A stretch of DNA of 64,000 nt, taken from the NCBI GenBank assembly GCA_947499125.1, contig CANMMP010000003.1, positions 372,001 to 436,000 of the forward strand, read 5' to 3'. Each line of letters starts with the position of its first letter. Positions within the stretch are counted from its first letter, which is position 1. The notes below the pieces were generated by a model. The model was not told where the DNA came from and made no database searches. It saw only the letters and a list, made by a program, of their open reading frames with translations. Positions 8,354 through 62,220 of this stretch are shown piece after piece. The stretch comes from an uncultured Pontibacter sp. (lineage in GTDB: Bacteria > Bacteroidota > Bacteroidia > Cytophagales > Hymenobacteraceae). A program made the translations under genes and the position numbers.

Positions 8354-8917
8354 TTATTGCTGTATGAGCACGTCAAATACAACTTCCACATCTGTTTCGC
8401 CTTTAGTAGCATCGCCAGGAGCAGCTGCTTTGCTGTCTTTCTGGTGTTTTACAACTACTTTAAGCGTGCCAGAGCTGGCTGCACCTGTTGTAAATGTAGT
8501 TTCCAGGCCAAGTGGGCGGCTCTGAGAGTCAGTGTCAGTGGTTGCTACTGTCAGGTTAAGGTTGCTGCTTGGGGTATAAAATATCTGGTGGTCGTTAGCT
8601 TCTGCTTTAACTTCGTTGTGCACCTGAATTGCAGGCGTCTGGTTTTCGTTGAAAAGTGTAAGCGTAGCGTTGTACGTGGTATTCTCTTTTAAAACCAGCG
8701 TTTCTTTTTCAGGGTTATTGCCTCCCGCGCCATCCAGGTCTTTATAAGTTGCAGCTGCCTGCAGTCCTTTTTCAGTGTCCATTGTCAGGGTCACAGTCGT
8801 GATCAACTCTTTATCTGATTGTGGAGCTGGGTTATCGTCGTCGCCGCAGCTTGTAGTTGTTGCGATCAGAGAACCCATCATTAAAAAGGCCAGGTATGGT
8901 CTCAAGAACTTCTTCAT
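8354..8917 (-). CDS. Small lipoprotein encoded after a TonB receptor
   Basis: A 187-residue lipoprotein. The signal MKKFLRPYLAFLMMGSLIATTTSC is followed by an acidic GDDDN stretch, which would suit surface or outer-membrane sorting in Bacteroidota. The body is beta-rich with many Thr/Asn residues (ETLVLKENTTYNATLTLFNE, LKVVVKHQK) and resembles the small lipoproteins often found with TonB-dependent receptors. It starts 63 bp downstream of the receptor on the same strand, so co-transcription is likely and a role as accessory or ligand-capturing partner is inferred. No enzymatic motif is visible. Confidence 0.75.
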   Translation of the reverse strand: MKKFLRPYLAFLMMGSLIATTTSCGDDDNPAPQSDKELITTVTLTMDTEKGLQAAATYKDLDGAGGNNPEKETLVLKENTTYNATLTLFNENQTPAIQVHNEVKAEANDHQIFYTPSSNLNLTVATTDTDSQSRPLGLETTFTTGAASSGTLKVVVKHQKDSKAAAPGDATKGETDVEVVFDVLIQQ

Positions 8918-8980
8918 AAGTAATAGTTTATAGTAAGTTGGTGTACAAATACGGTTTTAAGATATTAAGATACTTAATAT

Positions 8981-49672: not shown

Positions 49673-50473
49673 ATGAACAACACCCGTCAAATCCTTACCT
49701 GGAGTATCACTTTTATACTCATACTTGTTTTCTCGATCACGGCCATGCAGTCGTGCACGCGCATTGATGCCGGCCACGAAGGCATACTGGTTAAACTATA
49801 CGGCACCGACAAAGGCGTGCAGGACGTGAGCTTGGTAACAGGGCGTGTATGGTATAATCCGTTTACCGAAGAAGTGTTCCAGTTCCCGACCTTTGTACAG
49901 ACCGTAGACTATAACGCCTTTACCGTAAACGCAAAAGATGGCTCCGTTTTCACTGTAGATCCAACTATATCATTCAGGGTGATAAGCGGTGAGAGTCCGC
50001 GCATTTTTGCCAAATACCGTAAAGACATCGAGCAGATCACAACCACCACGCTCTACAACTATACCCGCGATGCGTTCCGTATTCAGTTCAACCAATATTC
50101 TACCGACAGCATCATATCTAACCGCCAGAGCTTTGAAGACAAAGTGCAGATAGCCTTGGATAATGCCCTGCGTAAAGAAGGTTTCGAGTTGGAGCAAATG
50201 ACCAGCGGTTTGCAGTACCCCGAAGTAATTGTGCAGGCCGTAAACCTGAAAAACAAAGCCGTGCAACAGGCCATGCAGGTAGAGAATGAGTTAAAAGTAG
50301 CCGAGGCCCAGGCCCGTAAAAAGATTGTAGAAGCTGAAGCAGAAGCCAAGGCCAACGAACTACGTCAGCGCACCCTTACGCCATTACTCATTCAGCAGCA
50401 GTTCATCGAGAAATGGAATGGCAGCACCCCACTATATGGTAGTTCACCTACATTTTTCAAGAACGTGCAGTAG
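49673..50473 (+). CDS. Prohibitin-like SPFH-domain protein
   Basis: A 266-residue membrane-anchored SPFH protein. An N-terminal helix (ITFILILVFSITAMQ) is followed by a Cys, then the SPFH domain (about 30-200): AGHEGILVKLYGTDKGVQDV, TVDPTISFRVISGESPRIFA and YNYTRDAFRIQFNQYSTDSI. The end is a Lys/Glu/Ala coiled coil (KVAEAQARKKIVEAEAEAKA) typical of prohibitins that assemble into rings around membrane proteases. No FtsH gene is adjacent. The Cys after MQS is not a standard lipobox. Confidence 0.87.
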   Translation: MNNTRQILTWSITFILILVFSITAMQSCTRIDAGHEGILVKLYGTDKGVQDVSLVTGRVWYNPFTEEVFQFPTFVQTVDYNAFTVNAKDGSVFTVDPTISFRVISGESPRIFAKYRKDIEQITTTTLYNYTRDAFRIQFNQYSTDSIISNRQSFEDKVQIALDNALRKEGFELEQMTSGLQYPEVIVQAVNLKNKAVQQAMQVENELKVAEAQARKKIVEAEAEAKANELRQRTLTPLLIQQQFIEKWNGSTPLYGSSPTFFKNVQ

Positions 50474-50495
50474 CGTATAGTTGTTGAGATTTGAT

Positions 50496-50524
50496 AAAGG
50501 CTATCAGAAATGGTAGCCTTTTTT
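50496..50524 (+). terminator. Terminator after the prohibitin-like gene
   Basis: AAAGGCTA and TAGCCTTTTTT form the stem, with a 10-nt loop and a T run. Confidence 0.8.
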
Positions 50525-50634
50525 GTTTTATAGTTGCCATTTTACCTCCCCCTAACCCCCTCCTAAAAACAGGAGGGGGAACTTTGCCCACTGTTATAAT
50601 TGGATTTATAGTTCTATAGAGAGTGGCATCAAGC

Positions 50635-50654
50635 GGACAGGTCGCGACCTGTCC
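50635..50654. repeat. Perfect 20-bp palindrome
   Basis: GGACAGGTCGCGACCTGTCC is its own reverse complement. It is inside the composite element and is not close to a start codon. Confidence 0.8.
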
Positions 50655-50669
50655 CTACGAAATGGGATT

Positions 50670-50693
50670 GTAGAGACGCAATACTTTGCGTCT
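50670..50693. repeat. Short hairpin repeat, GTAGAGACGCAATAC family, copy 2
   Basis: AGACGCAATACTTTGCGTCT (50674-50693) has perfect 8-bp arms around TACT. It has relatives at 5376-5399 and 58335-58358. Confidence 0.75.
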
Positions 50694-50820
50694 TGTTTCC
50701 AGTTGCGATAAACTTAACTATAAAATGATTTAAATTCCCCGCCTTAGATAAGGAGGGGTTAGGGGTGGTTGGACCACGCTAGCTATAGAACAATAAAGCT
50801 AATTATAGCATAAGCAGAAA

Positions 50821-50850
50821 CTCCCCTCTTGAGAGGGGCAGGGGTATGTT
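50821..50850. repeat. Solo arm of the CCCCT/AGGGG element family
   Basis: CTCCCCTCTTGAGAGGGGCA followed by GGGGTATGTT resembles one arm of the elements at 965 and 47466, with the internal hairpin CCCCTCTTGAGAGGGG. No second arm was found nearby. Confidence 0.6.
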
Positions 50851-50868
50851 AATTCGCTTACAACAACC

Positions 50869-51465
50869 CTACTCCGGCTTTTCCCGCATATCAGGGAATT
50901 GCTCATGAGGGTGGTTGGTAAGCTTTACAGGCTCACCCCGGAAACCACTGTTTTCGTTATGGTCGTCGTAGGGTACTTTAATGCCGTGGTAGTAATCCTG
51001 TATCTGATAATCTTTGCGGAGCGGGTGGCCTTCCCAGTCGGCGGCGCAAAGGATGCGACGCATATCAGGGTGATTGGTAAAGTAGATGCCAAATAGATCG
51101 AACACTTCGCGCTCTTGCCAGTCGGCGGTGCGCCAGATGTGGCTGACGGTTGGTACAGCAGGTATAGCTTCGCCTTCGGAGTTGCGTGGTACCTGCACTT
51201 TCAGCATCAGGTGATGATCGTAGGGGATAGAATACAGGTTATAAGCAACTTCCATCGTGCCGGCTTCGGGGCCATTATCTATACCTGTGAGGCAGGAAAG
51301 GAAATCGAAGTAAGTTTGTTCGTTGTCGTGCAACTCCAGGCATACATCGGCGAGGCGCTCGGTTTGCAGCACCAGGTAAGATTGCAGGTTATCGGCTTTC
51401 TCGGCAACTATAACCTCAGCGCCAAACTTCGCAACTATAAAATCCTGTAATTCCCTGAAGGTCAT
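50869..51465 (-). CDS. nuoC: NADH-quinone oxidoreductase subunit C
   Basis: The 30-kDa-type subunit of complex I, 198 residues. The family signature is present as HIWRTADWQEREVFDLFGIY followed by FTNHPDMRRILCAADWEGHP LRKDYQIQDY in sequence. The N-terminal alpha/beta part is FLSCLTGIDNGPEAGTMEVA. It is a stand-alone NuoC and not fused to NuoD. The start is ATG 51465. It follows nuoB after 62 bp. Confidence 0.95.
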   Translation of the reverse strand: MTFRELQDFIVAKFGAEVIVAEKADNLQSYLVLQTERLADVCLELHDNEQTYFDFLSCLTGIDNGPEAGTMEVAYNLYSIPYDHHLMLKVQVPRNSEGEAIPAVPTVSHIWRTADWQEREVFDLFGIYFTNHPDMRRILCAADWEGHPLRKDYQIQDYYHGIKVPYDDHNENSGFRGEPVKLTNHPHEQFPDMREKPE

Positions 51466-51487
51466 TTAATTATTAATTAGTAATGAT

Positions 51488-51544
51488 GAATGAATAATGA
51501 GCCAACTTTAGTATTAGTCATTACTCATTAAACATTATTCATTC
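51488..51544. repeat. 12-bp inverted repeat in the nuoB-nuoC junction
   Basis: GAATGAATAATG (51488-51499) and CATTATTCATTC (51533-51544) are exact reverse complements. The second arm lies inside the 3' end of nuoB. A similar TAATGA-rich stretch lies between nuoA and nuoB at 52046-52085. Confidence 0.6.
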
Positions 51545-52043
51545 TTTTCGCCATTATTTCCTGCACAGCCCTTGGTGCGCGTATAGTTTCCTGGCGGATG
51601 ATCTCCTGTAGTTTCAGAAACCCTCCGATTAGGGCTTCGGGACGTGGCGGACAACCAGGTACATACACATCCACCGGTATAATCCGGTCAACTCCTTTTA
51701 CCACATGGTAGCCATGTTCCCAGTACGGGCCGCCACAGTTAGAGCAACTCCCCATCGAAATCACGTAACGCGGCTCCGGCATTTGCTCATATAAGCGGCG
51801 CACGCGATCAGCCATTTTAAACGTAACAGTACCAGCCACAATCATCACATCAGACTGCCTCGGCGAAGCACGGGGTATAATGCCGAAACGGTCCAGATCG
51901 TAACCCGACGCATAAGCTCCCATCATTTCGATAGCACAGCAAGCCAGGCCAAAACCCATCGGGAACAGGGAAGTGAGTCGCGCCCAGTTCAGCAGGTCGT
52001 CCAGCTTGGTAATTACAATGCCGCCTTCTCCAGTTTTATCCAA
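51528..52043 (-). CDS. nuoB: NADH-quinone oxidoreductase subunit B
   Basis: The subunit holding the N2 iron-sulfur cluster, 171 residues. The cluster ligands are visible: [15 protein letters not shown] (the two adjacent Cys), [15 protein letters not shown] and [19 protein letters not shown]. The start is TTG 52043, as no ATG occurs in frame between it and nuoA. It lies 56 bp after nuoA. Confidence 0.96.
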
Positions 52044-52099
52044 GGTAATGAGTAATGATCAGTGAATAATGACTAATTCTTCTTTTGTCCTTTGTCAAA

Positions 52100-52603
52100 C
52101 TATCCTTTGTCAGGAGTTTTGGCCGGGCTATAGTTACGTTCATTTACGCGCTGGTATAGTTCGGCAGGTATTTTAGAGCGGCTTTTAGGTATAACCGGGG
52201 CAGGTTTTATCCAGTCTAAATGGCCTTTTGCCCATGCATAAGCCAAGCCCAGTACCAGTATACCGATAAAAATAAACATCTCGATCAGTGAGAACCAACC
52301 CCACATACCATCAGTCGCTTCTATCAGATCTCTGCGCCCAAACACAGTTGCCCACGGAAACAGGAAGGCTAACTCTACATCAAAAATGATGAAAATAAGC
52401 GCCACTACGTAAAACCTCGGGTTAAACTGCACCCACGAGTTCCCAATAGGTTCTTCTCCCGATTCGTAGGTCGTTAGCTTCTCAGCATTGGGCCTACTCG
52501 GGCGAATGAGCTTTGCTGTAAACAGGCCTATTACTACAAATATGGCACCGCCTACTAAAAAAAGCAGGATCGTTCCAAAATCTGAAGCATAGGTTTCCGC
52601 CAT
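52100..52603 (-). CDS. nuoA: NADH-quinone oxidoreductase subunit A
   Basis: A 167-residue membrane subunit with three helices (about 10-30, 65-90, 105-127). The conserved parts are [20 protein letters not shown] and [24 protein letters not shown] in sequence. The C-terminal 35 residues ([20 protein letters not shown] onward) extend past the usual end. It is the first nuo gene. Its upstream region is filled with repeats, so the promoter could not be placed. Confidence 0.94.
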
Positions 52604-52723
52604 AGTTGCCAGTGTTTACACAAATTTACGATAAAATTAATTACCCCACTTGGGGGAAGGGGTATTTGTCTGAATCAAGATTTACAGGATTAAAGGATTT
52701 GCAGGATTCCACTGATGCTGGCG

Positions 52724-52739
52724 CGAGCATCCACGCTCG
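52724..52739. repeat. Short hairpin CGAGC-ATCCAC-GCTCG
   Basis: Perfect 5-bp arms around a 6-nt loop, embedded in GCGCGAGCATCCACGCTCGT, a sequence style common in dispersed repeats. Confidence 0.5.
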
Positions 52740-52753
52740 TGACTTGGGATGGT

Positions 52754-52773
52754 GTTGAGTCTCCTGACTCAAC
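52754..52773. repeat. Short hairpin GTTGAGTC-TCCT-GACTCAAC
   Basis: Perfect 8-bp arms around a TCCT tetraloop, immediately after the previous hairpin. Confidence 0.65.
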
Positions 52774-52833
52774 TGGCTCGGAGAGACAGGTCTTGTGATG
52801 GCTGCGGCTATAATTCTATAGTTGGCGTAAATC

Positions 52834-52920
52834 AAACCACCCCTACCCCTCCTTGTCTAAGGAGGGGAGCTTCTAATAAGCTCCTTCCCCTGTTTTTAGG
52901 GGAAGGTTGGGAAGGGGTTT
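52834..52920. repeat. Palindromic CCCCT/AGGGG element upstream of the NHLRC2-like gene
   Basis: Left part AAACCACCCCTACCCCTCCT and right part with CCCCTGTTTTTAGGGGAAGG and GGGAAGGGGTTT form an imperfect inverted pair around AAGCT. It resembles the right arm of the composite element at 50544-50770. Confidence 0.65.
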
Positions 52921-52977
52921 AAACCTTTCCAACTATAACCCGGTAACTATAAACCTATCAAACCCAAACTATAAACC

Positions 52978-54393
52978 ATGCTGACAGGCCGCGTAAATGC
53001 CCCGGAAATACAGACAAAACACGGTTGGCTTAACACCGACCGCGATTGGACTATACGCGACCTGCGTGGTAAAATTATGTTGCTGGATTTCTGGACGTTT
53101 GGCTGCATTAACTGCCAGCATATTGTGCCCGACCTGAAGCGTCTGGAAGAAGAATTTGCAGATGTGTTGGTGGTGATTGGCGTGCACTCGGCCAAGTTTG
53201 ATGCGGAGAAGCGGAATGAAACTATAAAACAGGCGATCCGGAAATTTGGGATAACGCACCCGGTGGTAAACGATGCTGATTTTAAACTGTGGGACCAGTA
53301 TGGCATAAAAGCGTGGCCAACTATAGTGCTGATAGACCCTAATGGCAAAGTAATAGGCCAGCATGTCGGCGAAGGTGTGTACGAAAAGGTGCAGCCTTAC
53401 TTGTTGCGCACGAAAGAGGAGTTTAAAGAGACACTGAACTATGATCCGGTACGTTTCCACGTGGAGCAACCTGTTAGTTCGACCTTATATTTTCCTTCTA
53501 AGCTGATTCACGACAAAGAGGGCAACATTTACTTAGCTGACAGCGGGCACAACCGTATTCTTAAACTAAACCAGCATGGGCAGATACTGGAAACTATAGG
53601 CAGCGGCAAGCAGGGCTTTACAGACGGCAACTATAACGAAGCCACTTTTTACGAGCCGCACGGACTGGCACTTTGCAATAACACACTTTATATCGCCGAC
53701 TCCAAAAACAACGCCATCCGCAAAGCCGACCTGGAAACGAAAACTGTAACAACTATAGCTGGTACCGGAGAACTGGAATACTATTTTGACGATGATAAAC
53801 TGGGTGAACCAGTAAACCCCAACAGTCCCTGGGACCTGCTTGTTTTTGATAACCATCTGTACATTGCCAGCGCCGGTAACCACCAGATCCTGCGCATGCA
53901 TCTCGGCACCGAAAAAGTATTACGCTTTGCCGGCAACGGGCGAGAAGCCCTCTATGACAGCTCTCTGTTGGAGGCAGGCTTTAACCAGCCCAGCGGCCTC
54001 ACCCGCCACGACCACATCTTGTATGTAGCAGATGCCGAAGCCAGCGCCATCCGAACTATAAACTTTGATACGGGGCAGGTGCGAACTATAGTCGGCCACG
54101 GTTTATTTGATTTTGGCGACGAAGACGGTAACCTGGAAGATGCCCTGCTGCAACACTGCGTAGGCCTTACCCGGATTGACAGTGACATTTACATAGCCGA
54201 TACCTACAACGGGAAAATAAAAGTGCTCGACACCAGCCGCAAGCGCATACGCACCTTAACCGAAGGCCTGCACGAGCCCAACGACCTTACCTTCCTGAAC
54301 GGCCAGCTATGGGTAACCAGCACCAACAGCCACCAGCTTTTCAAAATAGACCTGAACACCGGCGAGAAGGAAGAGGTGGTAGTTGTAGGTTGA
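52978..54393 (+). CDS. Thioredoxin-like / NHL-repeat protein (NHLRC2 type)
   Basis: A 471-residue protein with a thioredoxin/TlpA-like domain (about 1-150) followed by an NHL-repeat propeller. The redox motif is FWTFGCINCQH (Cys43 and Cys46). The repeats include KDGNIYLADSGHNRILKLNQ-like units (GNIYLADSGHNRILKLNQHG, TLYIADSKNNAIRKADLETK, DIYIADTYNGKIKVLDTSRK). The order matches animal and bacterial NHLRC2. There is no signal peptide, so it is expected in the cytosol. The substrate is not known. Confidence 0.92.
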   Translation: MLTGRVNAPEIQTKHGWLNTDRDWTIRDLRGKIMLLDFWTFGCINCQHIVPDLKRLEEEFADVLVVIGVHSAKFDAEKRNETIKQAIRKFGITHPVVNDADFKLWDQYGIKAWPTIVLIDPNGKVIGQHVGEGVYEKVQPYLLRTKEEFKETLNYDPVRFHVEQPVSSTLYFPSKLIHDKEGNIYLADSGHNRILKLNQHGQILETIGSGKQGFTDGNYNEATFYEPHGLALCNNTLYIADSKNNAIRKADLETKTVTTIAGTGELEYYFDDDKLGEPVNPNSPWDLLVFDNHLYIASAGNHQILRMHLGTEKVLRFAGNGREALYDSSLLEAGFNQPSGLTRHDHILYVADAEASAIRTINFDTGQVRTIVGHGLFDFGDEDGNLEDALLQHCVGLTRIDSDIYIADTYNGKIKVLDTSRKRIRTLTEGLHEPNDLTFLNGQLWVTSTNSHQLFKIDLNTGEKEEVVVVG

Positions 54394-54410
54394 TAATTTC
54401 TTACAACGCT

Positions 54411-54590
54411 GTCATCCCCCTGCCCCCTTCAAAGGGGGACTTCTTTTCTTGTCATCCTGAAAGGATTTTAGTGGTTAATAGTGAAGGCCTACCCTCCCTT
54501 TCACCAAGTTTCTTTACAGAATGACAATTAAGGTTGAGCATGTTCACGTTAGCTGATAAAGCCCCCCTTTGAAGGGGGTAGGGGGATGAC
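54411..54590. repeat. Palindromic element, GTCATCCCCCTGCCCCCTTC family, copy 2
   Basis: GTCATCCCCCTGCCCCCTTC (54411-54430) and GAAGGGGGTAGGGGGATGAC (54571-54590) match as reverse complements at 19 of 20 positions, with about 140 bp between. A smaller GTCATCCTG / AGAATGAC pair is nested within (54450-54527). No transposase gene is inside. Confidence 0.8.
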
Positions 54591-54626
54591 CACACATGGA
54601 GATAACTAACAATCAGCAATTAAAAC

Positions 54627-55181
54627 CTACGCCGCTGCTTTAGCGCTCAGCTCCTGCTTTACTCTCAAAGCCTGCTGCACGTGGCGTTTCTGGTGGGTAA
54701 CCACAAATTCCAACGTTTCGCCGATACGCATTTTCAGCAACTTGAAGAACTCAACTGGAATAGCTTTTTTGTTCAGGTTAGTGTTTTTAGCGGCTTGCAA
54801 AAGTTGTAGTAAGTCCTGCTGATGCTTCAGAAACTCTTCTATAGTTGCCGGGCCTAACGCACTGTTGGCGGGATTCATGTGCTTTACTGTTTTGTGTTTT
54901 TTGCCGTTCTGCGGGCGCACCATGTCCAGCGATTTTTTGCCGAGCCAACTGTAGGTGATGCTTGGTACATAGTTGCCGTCGGAGTTATTGGTGATTGCTT
55001 TGGCAAGGGCGGGGTTATAGTAGCGACTATAGCGGTTCAGGTGCTCCAGGCACTCCAGTATGCTCCAGCTTTCGGGGGCTGATTTATAGTTGAGGGCAGC
55101 GAGATCCAGTGCCGAAAACTCGTTAGTTATAGTTTGCTGCAGATGGTTGGTGGTTTGCGAGAGTTGCTCTAAAGTAGTCAT
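54627..55181 (-). CDS. DinB family protein
   Basis: A 184-residue four-helix-bundle protein of the DinB/YfiT type, in which a metal is held by three His. The positions expected here are ILECLEHLNRYSRYY (His46 or so) and the C-terminal THQKRHVQQALRVK with two His. DinB proteins are thiol- or nucleophile-dependent transferases with many substrates, none of which can be chosen here. It lies 75 bp after the Crp/Fnr gene on the same strand. Confidence 0.85.
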   Translation of the reverse strand: MTTLEQLSQTTNHLQQTITNEFSALDLAALNYKSAPESWSILECLEHLNRYSRYYNPALAKAITNNSDGNYVPSITYSWLGKKSLDMVRPQNGKKHKTVKHMNPANSALGPATIEEFLKHQQDLLQLLQAAKNTNLNKKAIPVEFFKLLKMRIGETLEFVVTHQKRHVQQALRVKQELSAKAAA

Positions 55182-55256
55182 AGCTTTATAGTTTTATATT
55201 GTACACTACAAAGGTACAGCAGGTTATGGGAGCCAATCCTTGACGGGAATCAAGAT

Positions 55257-55811
55257 TTACAGTTTCAGGCGGCTCAGCGTTTCGGGGGACATGCGCAGGT
55301 ACGAGGCAATATACTTTTTAGGAATATGCTGAAACAAGTGCGGACTGCGCTGCATGACGCGCTGCAGGCGCTGCTCGGGCTCGGGCAACAACAAATCTAC
55401 TTCGCGCTCTATTTTGCCAACCAGGGCTTTTTCCAGTTGCTCGTACCAGAAACCTTTAATGTTAGGCCGCTCTTCCATCAGGTGCACCAGGTCGGTTTTG
55501 CTGATGCCCAGCAGCTCGCTCTTTTTAAGCGCCTGTATGTAATACGCCGAGGGTTTGCCATCTACAAATGACGGAAAAGAGATCATGAGCGTGTTCGGGT
55601 AACCAAAGCCTACGCAAATATCTTCGTCGGGGAGCGGGTAGTAAATGCGGAGAGCACCGCTGGTTACAAAGTATAAACCCTGCTCTACCTGCCCCTGCCG
55701 TATCAGGAAATCATAACGGTTCAGCTGCACCTGCTTCTTCCAGAGCGGCTCAAACGCAGCTATATCGTCCGGGGTGAAGTAAGGGATTTGCTGGAGTAGG
55801 GCTCGGAGCAT
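55257..55811 (-). CDS. Crp/Fnr family transcription regulator
   Basis: A 184-residue regulator with a cyclic-nucleotide-binding-like domain (about 20-115: FLIRQGQVEQGLYFVTSGAL, RIYYPLPDEDICVGFG) and a short C-terminal helix-turn-helix (PKKYIASYLRMSPETLSRLK). The short C-terminus is usual for Bacteroidota members, so no truncation is implied. It may respond to a small ligand, not identified. The gene upstream ends 7 bp before its start, so they may share a transcript. Confidence 0.9.
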   Translation of the reverse strand: MLRALLQQIPYFTPDDIAAFEPLWKKQVQLNRYDFLIRQGQVEQGLYFVTSGALRIYYPLPDEDICVGFGYPNTLMISFPSFVDGKPSAYYIQALKKSELLGISKTDLVHLMEERPNIKGFWYEQLEKALVGKIEREVDLLLPEPEQRLQRVMQRSPHLFQHIPKKYIASYLRMSPETLSRLKL

Positions 55812-55818
55812 GGAAGGG

Positions 55819-56817
55819 CTAAACTATAGTATCCTCTGCAAATTCAGAAAACTCTTCTAAAACAGCATCGGTCATGTATTCCAGCCTTTTTTCTTTTGAT
55901 AATTCTTCAACAGCATTATAAGAAATGAAAGTACAGGAGTTAGCTAAAACCAATTTGAATACTGGCCTCGACAGCTCACTCATTACTTTCTCTTTTCTTT
56001 CTATTGGAGCAACAATATGAGCCTTGATGGAAAGGTTTGGCTGCAATGCCATCAAATCAGCCATTCTTAAAATGCCTGAGTAAATTGAAGTTGTATGCTC
56101 TACTTCGAATGCACGAACTATAGTTCGGCCTTTTATCCAAAGCACATCAATGTTCTCAACAGTCTTTAATGTGTCAAGATCATAGTTGAGAGGTAGATCT
56201 TTTAAAATAGAACTAGGCTTGGCTGCCCATACTTCTGCAATTCTACTTCTATCGTTTTTAGGAAGCCAAATCTTATAACCCATACGCTCACCTATCTCGG
56301 CAAGTAGAGCTTGTATCTTTATCGAGTCACGAGTAAGTGGTGGTTCTTCAATTAACTCATCCGTCAGAGTTACTATTGCTTTTGCTTCGTTTTCTGAAAC
56401 TATAGGAGTATCAACTTCAAAAGGTGTAAACTTGTCTATTCTGTTATTTATAAACTCTTGATTTAGGAGATCACAAGCAAGCTGATCTGAAATTGGTTTA
56501 GAACCCTGGATATATTTGATGCTCCACGATTTGCCTCCTGCTTGTGAAAGTAAAGAAATGTCAAAAGGCTGGCAGTATTCTAATTCTTTTACACTTAAAG
56601 TGTGCTTATACCTGTCACTATCTGGCCAAGGCTTTAGGTCAGTAAGTTTGTCCAGCTTGAATCGTGCGCCGCAAAGTGTCTTTTTCCCAACTTTAACAAC
56701 CAGGTAAATTAAATCATTTGGCTGTGGGCCACGATGTGAGAACCCAGCCACTTGTTGTTCAACACAAATATTATAGTTCTCAACAGAGGTGGAACAGTGC
56801 AGGATTCTTGTGCTCAT
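55819..56817 (-). CDS. Putative PUA/EVE-like plus PD-(D/E)XK-like nuclease protein
   Basis: A 332-residue protein of no family I can name with certainty. Residues 1-120 look like a beta-barrel of PUA/EVE type (QPNDLIYLVVKVGKKTLCGA), possibly reading modified bases. Residues 165-300 contain IQALLAEIGERMGYKIWLPK, then NIDVLWIKGRTIVRAFEVEH, whose D...E-x-E layout resembles a PD-(D/E)XK nuclease core, then TTSIYSGILRMADLMALQPN. Both domain calls are inferred by eye. The gene is AT-richer than its neighbours, and its stop is 7 bp before the Crp/Fnr start. A role in restriction or defence is possible but unproven. Confidence 0.55.
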   Translation of the reverse strand: MSTRILHCSTSVENYNICVEQQVAGFSHRGPQPNDLIYLVVKVGKKTLCGARFKLDKLTDLKPWPDSDRYKHTLSVKELEYCQPFDISLLSQAGGKSWSIKYIQGSKPISDQLACDLLNQEFINNRIDKFTPFEVDTPIVSENEAKAIVTLTDELIEEPPLTRDSIKIQALLAEIGERMGYKIWLPKNDRSRIAEVWAAKPSSILKDLPLNYDLDTLKTVENIDVLWIKGRTIVRAFEVEHTTSIYSGILRMADLMALQPNLSIKAHIVAPIERKEKVMSELSRPVFKLVLANSCTFISYNAVEELSKEKRLEYMTDAVLEEFSEFAEDTIV

Positions 56818-56884
56818 TATTGTCGGGTAAAGTGCATCTTAATATAGTATAAAGTTAATCTATAATTATACATCTTCCTAATAC

Positions 56885-57169
56885 TCACCGCCGCTGCTCA
56901 AACTTCTCAAATCCATTCAATTTGTGCAGTTCTTTCACTTCCACTTTATCAACCCGAGCGTGTTCGGGGCCTTTGTGCAGCCAGGTTACCAGTTTTTCTA
57001 ACTTATCGGGGGCGCCTTCGGCTTCCAGGTACACGGTGCCGCCTCGCTCATTCAGTACATAACCGGTCAGGCCCAGTTCTTCAGCTTTCTCCTGGGTGCT
57101 GGCCCTGAAAAATACGCCTTGCACTTTGCCGTGTATCCGGGCTTCGATGTGTTTCTTTTCCTGCTTCAT
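56885..57169 (-). CDS. Acylphosphatase
   Basis: Hydrolyses acyl phosphates, 94 residues, the typical size. The catalytic loop is IHGKVQGVFFRASTQEKA (the Arg holds the phosphate) and the second residue is the Asn in GYVLNERGGTV. The start is ATG 57169. The gene is alone, 115 bp from the divergently placed nuclease-like gene's promoter region. Confidence 0.95.
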   Translation of the reverse strand: MKQEKKHIEARIHGKVQGVFFRASTQEKAEELGLTGYVLNERGGTVYLEAEGAPDKLEKLVTWLHKGPEHARVDKVEVKELHKLNGFEKFEQRR

Positions 57170-57369
57170 CAAACTATAAACTATAAGTAAACCGATTTTC
57201 AGAAGAACGTGCCGGGCAACTATAGGTTAAGGAAAGCTATTTTATAGTTCCAGCGAACGAAAGCCGGGCAAGTGGTTGTTTCAGAGTATAGAATAAGGCA
57301 ATCAGGCAACTATAAAGCTTGCCATAGTTTTGAGTAGCGCAAACTATAGCTGAATCCTGAAAAATGCCT

Positions 57370-57377
57370 TATCTTTA
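57370..57377 (+). promoter_or_regulatory. Possible -7 element upstream of the serine dehydratase gene
   Basis: TATCTTTA is one base off TAnnTTTG and lies 43 bp before the start codon. No clear -33 element was found. Confidence 0.3.
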
Positions 57378-57420
57378 ACGCCCTGCCGTTAAGGTGGCGG
57401 GTATATAAAAAGAAATACGT

Positions 57421-58326
57421 ATGTCATTACTATTCAACGACTTTAAGAGCTGGGGCAAGCATTGCGCTGAAACCGGTGAACCACTATACCAGCCTGTACT
57501 CGAATACGAAATTGAGCAAAAAGGCCGCACCGAAGAATTTATCTGGGAAAACATTGCCAAAGCCTACGAAGTGATGAAGGATGCCGTAAAAACCGGCCTC
57601 ACCGAAAACATGACGTCGCGCTCGGGCATGGTGAACAATGGCGCTAAAAAAGTGGCCAACTCTCCTGTAACGGTATTGTCGCCGGAGTTCCAGATGCTGG
57701 TGTCGCGGGCTTTGGGTGCAAAAGAAGTAAACTCGTGCATGGGCCGCGTGGTGGCTGCTCCAACGGCTGGCGCATCGGGTATTTTGCCGGGTGCGTTTAC
57801 TACGCTACAAGACCTGCATGGCCTGGAAGACAGAAAGATACACGAAGCCCTGTTGGTGGCGGCCGGTATTGCGCTTATTATAGAGCAAAACGCCTCGCTG
57901 GCAGGTGCTGTAGGTGGTTGCCAGGCCGAAACTGGTAGCGCGGCTGCTATGGCGGCCGGCGGTATAGTTTACTGCTTAGGCGGCGATGTGCCGCAGGTAT
58001 TTAATGCGGTGGCTATAACTATACAGTGTATGCTTGGCCTGGTGTGCGATCCTGTTGCCGGCTTAGTAGAAGTGCCATGCATTGTGCGTAACGCCAGTGC
58101 GGCTGCTATTGCGTATTCATCATCGCAGTTGGCCATTGCCGGCGTAGACCCTGTTATACCTGTAGATCAGTGTGTGGCAGCCCTCGGCGAAGTAGGCGAA
58201 AGCATGGAACGCAAGTATAAAGAAACCGCTGAAGGTGGCTTAGCAAACACCCCAAGAGCCCGCGAAATAGAAAGTTTTGTGCTGGTGCAAGATGTAGAGA
58301 TTCTTCCTGACGAAGACCCAGAATAG
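57421..58326 (+). CDS. sdaAA: L-serine dehydratase, iron-sulfur type, alpha subunit
   Basis: Deaminates L-serine to pyruvate and ammonia using a [4Fe-4S] cluster. The 301-residue protein has the alpha-domain features: TSRSGMVNNGAKKVA, RVVAAPTAGASGILPGAFTT, GGCQAETGSAAAMAAGGIVY, and LVCDPVAGLVEVPCIVRNAS with Cys residues that bind the cluster. The beta domain is neither fused nor next door, so the partner (if needed) lies elsewhere. It has its own terminator. Confidence 0.92.
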   Translation: MSLLFNDFKSWGKHCAETGEPLYQPVLEYEIEQKGRTEEFIWENIAKAYEVMKDAVKTGLTENMTSRSGMVNNGAKKVANSPVTVLSPEFQMLVSRALGAKEVNSCMGRVVAAPTAGASGILPGAFTTLQDLHGLEDRKIHEALLVAAGIALIIEQNASLAGAVGGCQAETGSAAAMAAGGIVYCLGGDVPQVFNAVAITIQCMLGLVCDPVAGLVEVPCIVRNASAAAIAYSSSQLAIAGVDPVIPVDQCVAALGEVGESMERKYKETAEGGLANTPRAREIESFVLVQDVEILPDEDPE

Positions 58327-58334
58327 TTAGAAAT

Positions 58335-58358
58335 GTAGAGGCGCAATACTTTGCGTCT
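58335..58358. repeat. Short hairpin repeat, GTAGAGRCGCAATAC family, copy 3
   Basis: AGGCGCAATACTTTGCGTCT (58339-58358) differs from copy 2 by one base in the stem (G-U pair). It is right after the serine dehydratase gene. Confidence 0.75.
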
Positions 58359-58365
58359 GAGTGTT

Positions 58366-58404
58366 AAAAAAGGTAGAAAGCCAGTGTGGTTTTCTACCTT
58401 TTTT
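58366..58404 (+). terminator. Terminator after the serine dehydratase gene
   Basis: AAAAAAGGTAGAAA and its exact reverse complement (58391-58404) form a 14-bp stem with an 11-nt loop and T run. Confidence 0.9.
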
Positions 58405-58472
58405 ATTTTATAGTTCAGGCAACTGTTTTTATAGTTTGGGAATCTTTGTAGTAGGAAACTATAGTTATAGAA

Positions 58473-58622
58473 TGTCATTTCGAATACTCTTGAGACGGGA
58501 GTCGAAGAGAGCCAGCGTAGCTGTGAGGAATCTTATACAGCTTCCGGATAGGGCAAATAAAATCCCTCGGCTTTGATTAGGATGACAAGTAAAATCCTCT
58601 CTTGGGAGGGGCAGGGGTGGGT
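58473..58622. repeat. Dispersed repeat sequence between sdaAA and the next lipoprotein gene
   Basis: The segment starts TGTCATTTCGAATACTCTTG, contains GAGGAATCTTATACAG and ends near GATTAGGATGACA, which resembles dispersed elements bounded by GTCAT/ATGAC. It is followed by CTCTCTTGGGAGGGGCAGGG (58597-58616), an arm of the CCCC family. No gene lies in the 370-bp gap. Confidence 0.55.
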
Positions 58623-58696
58623 TTATACTTTCCCCGAGAAATCAACCGTAACTATAAATTGCTTACAAAACTGCATTAACCGCCAACTATAAACTA

Positions 58697-59422
58697 ATGA
58701 AGAAGTACCTGTTGATCGCGACGCTCGCCAGCGTATTTGTATTTACATCCTGCTCTGTTCCTCAAATGGCGCTGGAATCTAACTTTAAAGAACAGGCCAG
58801 GGAATTACCCATAGAAGGCCGCAAAACGCTTAAGCCGAACGGCGATTTTACTATTGGCAATTACACTGTAGGAAACATAAAACGAGGCTGGGTAAGAAAA
58901 AGCGGCTATTCCATTTTCGGTTATAACGACGAGGAAGCTACTCAGAAATACCAGCTGAGTTTGCAGCACCCGGATGGCAGCCAGTGGTACATATTTGCTG
59001 CCAGCTACCTGGGCATTACCTCGCTGCAGGATGGCAAAGGCTTAACTATAGAATTAGAGCCCAACAAGGAATTTTATGCCAGCGAGTTCACATCGCCGGA
59101 AAGTGGTAACTGGCACCTGGTAACTATAGACCCACGTCATTATTTTAAGCGTAAAGATTTTACAGGCGAACTCTCCAATGGCAGTACCACTTTTAAGGTA
59201 GAGCCGGTTTATAAGTTCGAAGGGAAATCCCTGCCACTGTCTGAGATAGTTGGTTATGAGTTTAAAGACGGCGAAGCTATAGTTGGGGCAGTGCAGGTTA
59301 TAAACAATGGCAAAGTATGGTTAAAGCCTAACTTGCAGGAAGATACGCAAATGGTTTTGGCCAGTGCCATGGCATCGTTGTTGCTATATAACAAACTGGA
59401 AGAGAGCTTTCAGGATAATTGA
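58697..59422 (+). CDS. Lipoprotein of unknown function
   Basis: A 241-residue lipoprotein; the signal MKKYLLIATLASVFVFTSC gives an acylated Cys at 19. The mature protein is beta-rich (TIGNYTVGNIKRGWVRKSGY, LSLQHPDGSQWYIFAASYLG) with no Cys, and ends in a helical tail. I cannot place it in a family. It precedes the DUF4407 gene by 157 bp on the same strand. Confidence 0.7.
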   Translation: MKKYLLIATLASVFVFTSCSVPQMALESNFKEQARELPIEGRKTLKPNGDFTIGNYTVGNIKRGWVRKSGYSIFGYNDEEATQKYQLSLQHPDGSQWYIFAASYLGITSLQDGKGLTIELEPNKEFYASEFTSPESGNWHLVTIDPRHYFKRKDFTGELSNGSTTFKVEPVYKFEGKSLPLSEIVGYEFKDGEAIVGAVQVINNGKVWLKPNLQEDTQMVLASAMASLLLYNKLEESFQDN

Positions 59423-59579
59423 ACTTAACTCCTGAAAACTGCTGTTGCCGTTTTAACGCAGTTTCATCACATTTTGCAGGTGGTTCGTCACATTTTTGAG
59501 AGCCAAAAGTATTAAAATCAGTAAGTTGCGCGTTTATATAGCAGGCTGCCTTAACGTCAGTTTTATCCAGTAGAAATAC

Positions 59580-60755
59580 ATGAAGAAATTTTTTTGGTGG
59601 TGCGCCGGTGCCGACGACACCATTTTAGAGAAATGCTCTAAATCGGAGCACATAAAATATGCCGGTGTAGGCGCCACCGTTCTGTTTACGGGCATATTGG
59701 CCAGCATCTCGGGTGGCTATGCCCTTTACACTGTTTTCGATTCGGTGCCGATGGCTGTGGCTTTTGGTTTGCTGTGGGGTGCCGTAATTTTTAACCTCGA
59801 CCGTTTTATAGTTTCCACTATCCGCAAAGAAGGCCGTTTCTGGAAAGAGCTGCTGATGGTTACGCCACGTATTTTTCTTGCGCTGGTGCTGGCAGTTGTT
59901 ATATCTAAACCGCTGGAGCTAAAAATATTCGATAAGGAAATACAGGCTATACTTAAAGAAAAACAAGCCGAACTGGCTATTCAGCATAAAACCTTGGTAG
60001 GTAAGCAGTTTGCCGAAGTAGATTCTGTGAAAAGTGAGATAGCAGCCATCCGTGCCGAAATAGAAGCAAAAACTCAGGAGCGTAACAAACTATATGAACT
60101 GGTAGCTGCCGAAGCCGACGGAACAGGCGGTACCGGTAAAATTGGTAAAGGCCCTATTTACGAAGAGAAAAAACGCCAGTACGATAAAGTAGACGAAGAA
60201 CTCAAACTGCTGCAGGCCAGTGCTGCCGATCGCATCCTGGTAAAAGAAAAGCGCATTGCCGACCTGATGAAGCAGTACGATACCACTGTGAACGAAGGCC
60301 AGGAAAGCTTTTCGAATTATGATGGCCTGATGGCGCGCATTGATGCCCTGAATAAACTGCCCTGGCTGCCGGTTTTCTTCATTACGTTGCTGTTCATCAT
60401 GCTCGAAACGGCCCCGATATTTACAAAACTGATCACGAACAAAGGGCCTTACGACGATATTCTGAAAGGTGTGGAGCACGAGCGCACTACCCAGGAAATG
60501 CAGCGCGTAGCTGAGCGACAAAAGCAATTTGATACCCGCCACGCCGTAGCCGAAGCCAAATTTGCTGCCCGACAGGAATACGAAATGGAAGCCAAACGCG
60601 AAGAAGAACACCTGAAGTCTGATGCACACTTAGAGACGGTCCGTGAATCGGCAGCTGTTTGGCGAGAGCGCAAACTGGCCGACATAAACCGCAGCCCTAA
60701 CACTGCCGCCGATATACTGAATGATGGCGAAGAGAACGGCTACTATAAGTGGTAA
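59580..60755 (+). CDS. DUF4407 membrane protein
   Basis: A 391-residue protein with membrane segments at about 27-52, 58-78, 95-113 and 262-282. The N-terminus is MKKFFWWCAGADDTILEKCS and the FNLDRFIVSTIRKEG loop is the family hallmark. Between segments 3 and 4 runs a long coiled coil (about 118-235, with IRAEIEAKTQERNKLYELVA), and a charged helical tail follows the last segment. The function of DUF4407 is unknown. Confidence 0.88.
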   Translation: MKKFFWWCAGADDTILEKCSKSEHIKYAGVGATVLFTGILASISGGYALYTVFDSVPMAVAFGLLWGAVIFNLDRFIVSTIRKEGRFWKELLMVTPRIFLALVLAVVISKPLELKIFDKEIQAILKEKQAELAIQHKTLVGKQFAEVDSVKSEIAAIRAEIEAKTQERNKLYELVAAEADGTGGTGKIGKGPIYEEKKRQYDKVDEELKLLQASAADRILVKEKRIADLMKQYDTTVNEGQESFSNYDGLMARIDALNKLPWLPVFFITLLFIMLETAPIFTKLITNKGPYDDILKGVEHERTTQEMQRVAERQKQFDTRHAVAEAKFAARQEYEMEAKREEEHLKSDAHLETVRESAAVWRERKLADINRSPNTAADILNDGEENGYYKW

Positions 60756-60776
60756 AAGTATAGAACTATAAAAAGT

Positions 60777-60813
60777 AAAACGCCTTGCCTGGAGATACCG
60801 GGCAAGGCGTTTT
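60777..60813. terminator. Bidirectional terminator between DUF4407 and kmo
   Basis: AAAACGCCTTGCC and GGCAAGGCGTTTT are perfect 13-bp arms around an 11-nt loop between convergent genes. Confidence 0.92.
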
Positions 60814-60834
60814 AATGTATAGTAAATTATAAAA

Positions 60835-62220
60835 TTATACTTCCTGGGCCTGGTAAGGCTGCAGTTTTGCTTTTTGTACCAGTTGCTTCTCCAGCAGTTC
60901 CTGTACCTCAGGCTTATTATAATCTTCTACAGTTTGTATGTGCTTCATTACTTTCTGCATGATCTTGTCCTGCTTGCGGCCGGTTTCGAGGGCATACGAG
61001 TAAGGCAGATCTGTAAAAGTAACCATGCTGTAAAGCGGTATCCATTTGTCGGGGTACTGCTGGCTTATTTTACTTTCTATTTTTTTACGGAGCAGGAAGC
61101 GGATATCAGCCACCTTATCGCGCATTTCAATAAAATTCATTACAGCCAGGTCGGCTATGGCATCTGCGTTTGGTTTACGGCTTCGTTCAAAAGCTTTAAA
61201 TAACGCTTCCCAGTTACCATCAAAGTTCTCGAGCATACTATCCAGCACCGAAATATCTTCGAAACCGGCATTCATGCCCTGTCCATAAAAAGGTACTACC
61301 GCATGGCTGGCATCGCCTATCAGCAGCGCTTTATCTTCGTACGACCACGGAAAGCATTTTATAGTTACCAGGGTGCCGGTAGGGTTGCAGAAAAACTCCT
61401 GTGTAAGGTCTGGCATAAGTGGTACCGCATCCGCAAAAGCCTCCAGGAAGAAGTTAAGCAACTCCGTATCATTGGTGATAGTAGAGAAAGAGCGCTCGCC
61501 TTCATAAGGAAAGAATAACGTGCAGGTAAAGCTGCCGTCTATATTTGGCAGCGCGATCATCATGTAGTTGCCACGTGGCCAGATGTGTAAAGCATTCTTT
61601 TCGAGTGCCCATTCGCCGCCTGGCAGTGCCGGTATCGTTAGCTCTTTGTAACCATACTCCAGGTAGCTTTGCGAATAGTTAAAACGCTCGGTCTTCTGAA
61701 GCGCGCCCCGCACCATCGAAAAAGCGCCATCAGCCCCGATCATCACTTCAGGTTTTATAACCGTTATAGATTCGTCCTGGGGATTGCGCAGGTATACTTC
61801 GTTTGTTTTTAGGTCAACATCCTGCACTTGCTGGTTAAAGTGGTAAGTAATATCCGGGTTTGGCTCCGACAGGTTCATCAGGGCCACGTTAAGGCCACTC
61901 CGCGATACTGAATAAATGGCTTGTCCCTCTTTGCCATACGGCTGAAACGTAAGCTCGCCATCTTCGCTGTGCATTATGCGCCCATGCATAGGTATGGCTA
62001 CTTTGCGCACATCATCTTCTATGCCAATGCCTCTTAGTGCGGTCCAGCCACGGTCGCTCAAAGCCAGGTTTATCGAACGGCCGCCATCCAGTGTATTAAT
62101 TCGCATGTCGGGTCTGCGCTCGTACACATCTACTTTAAAACCGCGCTTTGCCAGGTACAACGATAGCAACGAGCCTACCAGGCCTGCTCCCATAATGGCG
62201 ATATTCTTTTTAGAGGTCAT
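60835..62220 (-). CDS. kmo: Kynurenine 3-monooxygenase
   Basis: FAD-dependent hydroxylase of tryptophan catabolism, making 3-hydroxykynurenine. The 461-residue protein from ATG 62220 has the FAD-binding IMGAGLVGSLLSLYLAKRGF, YERRPDMR, the family motif DGGRSINLALSDRGWTALRG, and GDASHAVVPFYGQGMNAGFE. An open frame extends 8 codons upstream, but without family similarity that I recognise. The other kynurenine pathway genes are not adjacent, so it may serve NAD synthesis. Confidence 0.95.
   Translation of the reverse strand: MTSKKNIAIMGAGLVGSLLSLYLAKRGFKVDVYERRPDMRINTLDGGRSINLALSDRGWTALRGIGIEDDVRKVAIPMHGRIMHSEDGELTFQPYGKEGQAIYSVSRSGLNVALMNLSEPNPDITYHFNQQVQDVDLKTNEVYLRNPQDESITVIKPEVMIGADGAFSMVRGALQKTERFNYSQSYLEYGYKELTIPALPGGEWALEKNALHIWPRGNYMMIALPNIDGSFTCTLFFPYEGERSFSTITNDTELLNFFLEAFADAVPLMPDLTQEFFCNPTGTLVTIKCFPWSYEDKALLIGDASHAVVPFYGQGMNAGFEDISVLDSMLENFDGNWEALFKAFERSRKPNADAIADLAVMNFIEMRDKVADIRFLLRKKIESKISQQYPDKWIPLYSMVTFTDLPYSYALETGRKQDKIMQKVMKHIQTVEDYNKPEVQELLEKQLVQKAKLQPYQAQEV

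Follow-up and report, generated by a model that had tools for sequence, protein, structure and literature searches.

Single-chain fusions of an EVE domain to a PD-(D/E)XK nuclease have been predicted to be type IV restriction enzymes (Bell, Wolf and Koonin 2020, PMC7641849), and VcaM4I is described as an EVE-HNH modification-dependent endonuclease with the pocket residues P24, W82 and Y130 (PMC7897488). A YTH-type reader of modified DNA is reported in the YTH-McrB protein of Thermococcus gammatolerans (PMC12707154, PMC7897488). Such sensor nucleases attract interest, since base modifications give phages cover and the readers are useful tools. Exchange of defence genes between fixed core genes is described for the enterobacterial immigration control region yjiA-yjiN (PMC12707154), for Streptococcus suis site 39 between rpiA and trmE (PMC5398294) and for Pseudomonas aeruginosa cDHS1, whose content is given as 1-224 kb with a median of 26 kb (PMC10250203).

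Here we describe a gene of an uncultured Pontibacter sp. that lies in a stretch of 64,000 nucleotides (the window), and whose product we take, at a probability near 0.7, to be a putative modification-dependent (type IV-like) nuclease, formed of a single chain and serving in defence. The gene is one of 11 kinds of occupant of a mostly one-gene slot that Pontibacter lineages have repeatedly replaced. The features of the locus are as follows.

55819 to 56817, minus strand: gene of the two-domain protein, a proposed modification-dependent nuclease (332 aa, ATG start)
56425 to 56817, minus strand: predicted sensor domain, residues 1-131, with a YTH/EVE/ASCH-like PUA-superfamily fold (AF2, Foldseek, VIA-align, column counts)
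56338 to 56412, minus strand: low-confidence linker, residues 136-160 (pLDDT under 50)
55822 to 56349, minus strand: nuclease-like domain, residues 157-332 (AF2 pLDDT 87.6, pTM 0.86)
56095 to 56154, minus strand: putative catalytic core N222-H241 with D224, E238 and E240, D...ExE (column counts)
56843 to 56874, minus strand: leader element of 32 bp preceding the gene, with an imperfect TATAATTATA palindrome (30 of 32 bases match the family consensus)
55257 to 55811, minus strand: Crp/Fnr-type gene (crp), usual right flank of the slot (Pfam cNMP_binding 1.8e-10; synteny)
56885 to 57172, minus strand: acylphosphatase gene (acyP), fixed left flank (Pfam Acylphosphatase 6.1e-26; 50 of 50 genus genomes)
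55812 to 56884: exchange slot, from the acyP stop codon to the crp start codon (breakpoints in nine of nine pairs, and occupants)

The original prediction had described this ORF as an AT-rich orphan gene ending seven bases before a Crp/Fnr gene. The ORF and the cNMP_binding match confirm the arrangement, with 7 bp between the stop codon and the ATG of the Crp/Fnr-type gene, and the composition agrees as well: the 1-kb bin 56001-57000 has 39.3% G+C, near the minimum of the window, whose 1-kb bins span 38.9-52.1%. The orphan label, by contrast, was wrong. Genome contigs were scanned and yielded 40 related loci, among which 11 other Pontibacter species match over the full length and the rest with one half each, and the full-length gene is present in 13 of 50 genus genomes (its own and 12 others). 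A chance ORF is excluded, because the full-length identity to the 11 other species is 66-80%. Profile searches gave a divided answer: Pfam and NCBIfam returned no family for the protein even at E 10, while the sole PADLOC match, REase_II (E 5.2e-16), falls on the tail at residues 162-325. A sequence search of solved structures gave weak matches alone (best E 0.3), and the full-length AF2 model has a mean pLDDT of 81.9 and a pTM of 0.52.

For the head, structure comparison with VIA-align matched the model to the YTH structure 7njc (Z 12.4, rmsd 2.8, 127 residues), to PH1033 (1wmm; Z 12.1, rmsd 2.5, 118 residues), which we take to be an EVE-type protein, and to the ASCH structure 5gus (Z 11.8, rmsd 2.3, 117 residues). 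The best 50 matches to the model of residues 1-135 lie at Z 10.8-12.4 and rmsd 2.3-3.3 over 115-128 residues and are mostly YTH domains, with ASCH and PH1033 also among them; the best Foldseek E value for the head is 2.3e-3. Structure prediction and fold comparison thus bear out the PUA/EVE-like head proposed earlier as a YTH/EVE/ASCH-type barrel, and by its predicted fold the head belongs with the sensor domains of the PUA superfamily (SRA/EVE/YTH/ASCH). YTH structures top its fold list, yet it has no Pfam match, and its resemblance to PH1033 comes with no match to any Pfam model, that of EVE (PF01878) included. We do not call the head an EVE domain by sequence, because comparing the profiles of both head types yielded a probability of only 5.4% (E 0.0072). 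The residues F26, W64, Y70, W98 and Y102 are unchanged across all 13 aligned heads; some of these aromatics may line a putative base pocket, and F26, W64 and Y70 are candidates for an m6A aromatic cage. Base reading is suggested here by the fold rather than by a ligand, and YTH and EVE folds also read RNA.

The tail model matched the nickase N.BspD6I (Z 8.3, rmsd 3.5, 143 residues) and FokI (Z 7.5) in VIA-align. Below FokI the list is rich in restriction enzymes, BamHI chains at Z 5.7-6.0 among them, with some non-nucleases from Z 7.0 down, and Foldseek gave a best E of 0.054. The previously quoted core, NIDVLWIKGRTIVRAFEVEH, is present with D224, E238 and E240. Across 34 aligned C-domains, 33 of them relatives with 53-83% identity to the window tail, D224, E240 and H241 are invariant and E238 is kept in 33; the lysine at this position in one relative counts against our reading. 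The core is D...ExE and not the canonical D...(D/E)xK, because E240 occupies the lysine position (D224...E238-V-E240). BamHI likewise has a glutamate there. Hence the nuclease-like working reading of the tail appears to stand and the strict PD-(D/E)XK motif does not, and we assign the tail with moderate confidence to a restriction-endonuclease-like fold with conserved putative catalytic residues. The nuclease-like tail with a D...E-x-E core was therefore a sound call, moderately supported by the N.BspD6I match and by the conservation of D224, E238 and E240, and where a missing nuclease core was to count against it, the fold found is restriction-endonuclease-like at a moderate level of match.

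In the proposed mechanism, the YTH/EVE-like barrel would flip out and bind a modified base of foreign DNA, rather than RNA, as part of phage defence. This docking would deliver or free the C-terminal PD-(D/E)XK-type domain, which would cut nearby, with D224, E238 and E240 holding the metal for cleavage. A partner methyltransferase would be unneeded, because the host would be without the sensed mark in the sensed context.

The predicted EVE-PD(D/E)XK class, as its authors outline it, likewise joins a PUA-superfamily reader to a PD-(D/E)XK-type nuclease in a single chain (PMC7641849). The window protein differs from it in a head that has no Pfam match, forms a separate branch, keeps its own invariant residues and finds its best folds among YTH domains, and we regard it as a variant of this class with an unlisted head. 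The class is not wholly of the uncharacterised type proposed earlier, since EVE-PD(D/E)XK fusions had already been predicted as type IV in 2020. VcaM4I also has a modified-base reader head, a linker and a nuclease tail in one chain, but its tail is HNH where that of the window protein is of PD-(D/E)XK type (PMC7897488). A reader head, a linker and a nuclease-like tail, with no near match to the four methyltransferase families searched, are the layout of modification-dependent restriction enzymes like VcaM4I. In YTH-McrB the reader is part of an McrB protein whose nuclease partner is a distinct subunit, whereas the window reader is fused directly to the nuclease-like domain. What the two appear to share is a YTH-type reader of modified DNA within a restriction protein (PMC12707154, PMC7897488).

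The two halves of the protein have separate relatives. The C-terminal half (about 163-330) is 51-74% identical to proteins in Bacteroidota, Bacillota, Spirochaetota, Chloroflexota, Ignavibacteriota and Pseudomonadota, and complete relatives of this half outside the family bear another head type, typically starting MAYYINLFSP. The one tested, L012, matches Pfam EVE at 0.0023 and 18.4 bits, below the 23-bit cut-off, and these EVE-head relatives (among L011-L033) look like members of the EVE-PD(D/E)XK class as outlined (PMC7641849). The N-terminal half (1 to about 140) is 50-57% identical to four Paenibacillus proteins and one Saprospiraceae protein. Head and tail are exchangeable modules, because each half is fused elsewhere to a different partner. 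In the Paenibacillus and Saprospiraceae proteins (L036-L039 and L034, 411-427 aa) the window head type is joined to a different tail, which carries a PDA...NLIEYECYG motif and may represent a second type of nuclease.

The head is rare in the phylum (3 of 395 sampled genomes, its own included, one of the three being a weak match with stops), and within the family it was found in 13 of 200 genomes, identical to the 13 full-length carriers. The combination of this head with this nuclease tail was found only in Pontibacter, in the acyP-crp slot; the phylum sample adds a 442-aa protein with the head. Neither the head alignment nor an EVE-type alignment found a relative when scanned against viral_contigs. 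In the midpoint-rooted C-domain tree, the 13 family members form a single clade (99/96) that is placed among the EVE-head relatives and whose sister group is the two Pontibacter EVE-head proteins (94/92). The head was probably exchanged once, in the Pontibacter lineage, because this tree nests the family clade within the EVE-head set. An in-place head swap within one species was set aside, as the tree agrees better with a fusion of greater age and later replacement of the whole gene. More distant tails, 32-38% identical to the window nuclease domain, occur in 43 of 200 family genomes, 39 of them from genus g5. The seven such proteins examined (L053-L057, L059 and L060, all from Hymenobacteraceae and 415-424 aa long; L053 lies near 8501-8923) have the core FEVEK, with lysine replacing histidine, and a different helical head with KIKGLGPAVASILYFLHP that looks helix-hairpin-helix-like by eye.

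Outside Pontibacter, the setting of relatives of either half is mixed. The 85 proteins flanking them in other organisms match 290 PADLOC families, as reported by family, including type I methyltransferase and specificity subunits, type IIG, AbiEi and AbiEii. Ten neighbours chosen by hand divide evenly: five have a PADLOC match and five have no defence match. The Fibrella relative L011 lies beside a type IIG gene, L012 beside REase_II and a weak mad8 match, and the Dyadobacter relative L017 beside type I methyltransferase and specificity subunits. The expectation that homologues sit in defence islands is thus met in part, with some relatives adjoining restriction-modification genes and half of the named neighbours lacking a defence match.

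The acyP gene is present in all 50 Pontibacter genomes, and we compared the DNA downstream of it in all 50, counting ORFs on the acyP strand of over 150 aa that start within 620 bp. The row L127, a duplicate of L009, was omitted from the data. The slot is occupied by an accessory gene on the acyP strand in 32 genomes, starting 22-109 bp past the last acyP codon, and holds one gene in 31 of these and two in L091. In the other 18 genomes the slot is empty or acyP lies in a rearranged neighbourhood, so that not all are clean empty sites. The crp start was recognised downstream in 22 of the 32, and in 14 of these 22 the occupant's stop lies 4-9 bp before it. The 32 occupied slots hold 11 kinds of occupant, with the window family and the EVE-head kind counted separately although they have the same tail and fall into one BLAST cluster:

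Window family, 13 genomes (PADLOC REase_II)
EVE head with the same tail, 2 genomes (L012 as stand-in for PADLOC)
SRA-HNH, 5 genomes (SAD_SRA 7e-51 and HNH_2 1.4e-11 in the one scanned)
DnaQ-BRCT, 3 genomes
Unk1, 3 genomes (no PADLOC match)
DUF4365, 1 genome (PDC-M02A)
DUF3644, 1 genome (PDC-S19, 9e-97)
SIR2, 1 genome (ThsA 3.3e-19)
DzbB-like protein, 1 genome (1.4e-6)
Unk2, 1 genome (no PADLOC match)
HEPN-like protein, 1 genome (sub-threshold HEPN match; no PADLOC match)

With one representative scanned per kind, 8 of the 11 kinds match PADLOC at E <= 1e-5, which amounts to 27 of the 32 occupied genomes provided that each representative is typical of its kind; L012 stood for both EVE-head slot proteins, the second L091 gene was left out, and the PADLOC models are broad and include candidate-only families. 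As a control, PADLOC matched at most 2 of 50 other window ORFs (50 of the 54 listed were scanned), a figure that is a maximum because the scan reports matches by family. It also matched none of 10 representatives of neighbouring-gap families, which were chosen from clusters, excluding a large NADH-dehydrogenase-like cluster and the single ORFs of one gap, and some of which may be chance ORFs. In 20 of the 32 genomes the occupant is a predicted fusion of a modified-base reader (SRA, EVE or the window head) with a nuclease. Both predicted folds and this slot of swapped defence-type genes lend support to the modification-dependent, restriction-like defence role that the original prediction had suggested. 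The occupants of L099, L100, L110, L113 and L120 (Unk1, Unk2 and the HEPN-like protein) have no PADLOC match, and by location they are candidate new defence genes. The gap between sdaA and acyP is also variable (L002-L004, L008, L024 and others), with an ORF of at least 90 aa in 18 of 49 genomes and one recurrent protein family of 12 ORFs; none of its six family representatives matches PADLOC.

These data also bear on the target. The protein could instead be a sensor-nuclease acting on modified or foreign RNA, such as tRNA or phage mRNA, and leading to dormancy or abortive infection; its best head folds are indeed YTH domains, many of them solved with m6A or RNA, and a SIR2-type protein is found among the slot occupants. 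The SIR2 family is used in abortive defences. But the nearest folds of the tail are mostly DNA restriction enzymes and nickases, the same tail domain adjoins type I and IIG restriction-modification genes, and five slot occupants are SRA-HNH proteins, a known kind of DNA enzyme, so we consider an RNA target improbable.

We then turn to methyltransferases, searched with PF00145, PF02384, PF01555 and PF02086 (E <= 1e-10) in the 13 carriers, some of whose contigs are short. In 11 carriers none of the four families matches on the gene's contig, and in the other two (G049 and G103) none is closer than about 480 kb; no cognate methyltransferase of these families stands beside the gene. This weighs on the possibility of a type II restriction enzyme with a sequence-reading head and a methyltransferase encoded elsewhere, for which the paired methyltransferase of a Type II restriction-modification system was sought near the gene in these four families and not found. 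The name of the matched PADLOC model, REase_II, and the methyltransferase homologues elsewhere in the genome speak for such an enzyme; against it are the lack of any match to the four families closer than about 480 kb on the contig of the gene in 13 of 13 carriers (some contigs being short), a head with the fold of modified-base readers, and the replacement of the gene alone, which together make it slightly less credible again than an RNA target.

Returning to a modification-dependent nuclease, the host methyltransferases do not point to the base that it would sense. C5 enzymes (PF00145) occur in 4 of 13 carriers and 19 of 37 other genomes (Fisher p 0.33), which is no significant deficit, D12 enzymes (PF02086) in 4 of 13 and 9 of 37 (p 0.72), and N6/N4 enzymes (PF01555) in 10 of 13 and 17 of 37 (p 0.10), while PF02384 homologues are found in 47 of 50 genomes. 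Inferring the sensed base in this way was given up, since no family differs significantly. The window genome itself has PF02384 and PF01555 homologues and no PF00145 match (E <= 1e-10). An unselective m6A sensor would probably be harmful to this host, because its genome carries the PF02384 and PF01555 homologues.

To follow the turnover, a species tree of 49 genomes was built from five neighbouring core proteins; L117 was left out for too few columns, seven other rows fill less than half of the columns, and the flanking genes may themselves recombine. On this tree the occupant changes 29 times, against a shuffled mean of 28.4 and with values as low in 146 of 200 shuffles. The window's nearest relative (100/100) carries DnaQ-BRCT in the slot, the sister pair L009/L107 (100/100) holds the window family and SRA-HNH, respectively, and the sister pairs L097/L098 and L091/L095 (100/100 each) also differ in occupant. 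The slot thus combines the marks of a defence hotspot, namely conserved flanks, variable defence content and scatter on the species tree. In all nine pairs with different slot content, flank identity stops 1-9 bp beyond the final codon of acyP. In the four pairs that have crp on both sides without a shared tail (one slot being empty in one of these pairs), identity picks up again no more than 11 bp from the crp ATG.

Leader elements record some of these replacements. The consensus is matched at 23-32 of 32 positions in 11 of 13 family members, with L003 and L004 diverging (19-20), and a repeat search also lists the palindrome TATAATTATA; the leader could be a promoter or operator. In several relatives the near-palindrome is TGTATAATTATACA, and a ATTAACTTTATCCTATA-like stretch is seen too. 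Two genomes keep the leader in the absence of a window-family gene, L121 (now SIR2) at 31 of 32 and L112 (no occupant) at 28 of 32; elsewhere the best score is 21 of 32, both among the 35 remaining slots and in background sequence. We read these leaders as probable scars of a displaced window-family gene. The genomes L008, L024 and L106, with differing slot contents, have in common a stretch ACACGCAGCAAGGGCGGCGG just upstream of crp that resembles what is left of the end of another gene.

Of 10 splits, 5 are common to the gene tree and the species tree (1000 shuffles gave a mean of 0.25 and a maximum of 5), and the gene and species distances correlate at 0.44, a value reached in 3 of 2000 permutations. 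Much of the history of the window gene may therefore be vertical, and an old occupant that is repeatedly replaced fits at least as well as frequent gain, because half of the splits are shared; frequent horizontal gain of the family is for the same reason unproven. A tRNA-borne island is unsupported, with no tRNA within 50000-62000 and no direct repeat at the slot borders, the only one of at least 14 nt in 55200-57300 lying away from them. Exchange most likely proceeds by homologous recombination through the flanking core genes.

A domesticated housekeeping nuclease tied to acyP and crp, for example in the repair of damaged or modified bases, is the least likely alternative: the fixed position beside acyP, the partly vertical inheritance (5 of 10 shared splits) and the 7 bp to crp, which suggest co-transcription, are outweighed by the absence of the full-length gene from 37 of 50 genus genomes, by the other, mostly defence-type genes that sister species hold at the same place, and by the leader scars. 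A housekeeping assignment drawn from the fixed position in 11 Pontibacter genomes was accordingly overturned by the genus-wide slot comparison. Homologues in housekeeping contexts only were to speak against a defence gene; the flanks are indeed housekeeping, yet the slot swaps defence-type genes, and some relatives lie beside restriction-modification genes.

The putative modification-dependent nuclease is seated in a compact form of the known defence hotspot, which differs in its near-single-gene size and sharp borders. The regions yjiA-yjiN, site 39 and cDHS1, as far as the cited accounts describe them, hold multigene systems or islands (PMC12707154, PMC5398294, PMC10250203), whereas the Pontibacter slot nearly always holds one gene and, unlike those three hotspots, is cut near the acyP stop codon and often near the crp start codon. 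In the titles and abstracts of one literature library we found no publication on the acyP-crp slot, and none there that combines Pontibacter, 'defense systems' and 'phage'. More speculatively, and with the odds somewhat against it, acyP-crp might be an allelic-type immune locus, in which at least 11 defence kinds are exchanged, nearly always singly, near the acyP stop and the crp start, and the window gene might carry an unlisted YTH/EVE-branch sensor that reads a phage-DNA modification new to such enzymes. In that case the Unk1, Unk2 and HEPN-like occupants would be new defence genes.

The locus provides a concrete candidate for a nuclease that depends on base modification and whose sensor head is unlisted. 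The slot offers a route to guilt by location, as 5 of its 32 occupied genomes hold proteins with no match in the defence library. Because the exchange is gene-sized, has sharp borders and leaves leader scars, one could measure directly how immune genes turn over between sister species of Pontibacter.
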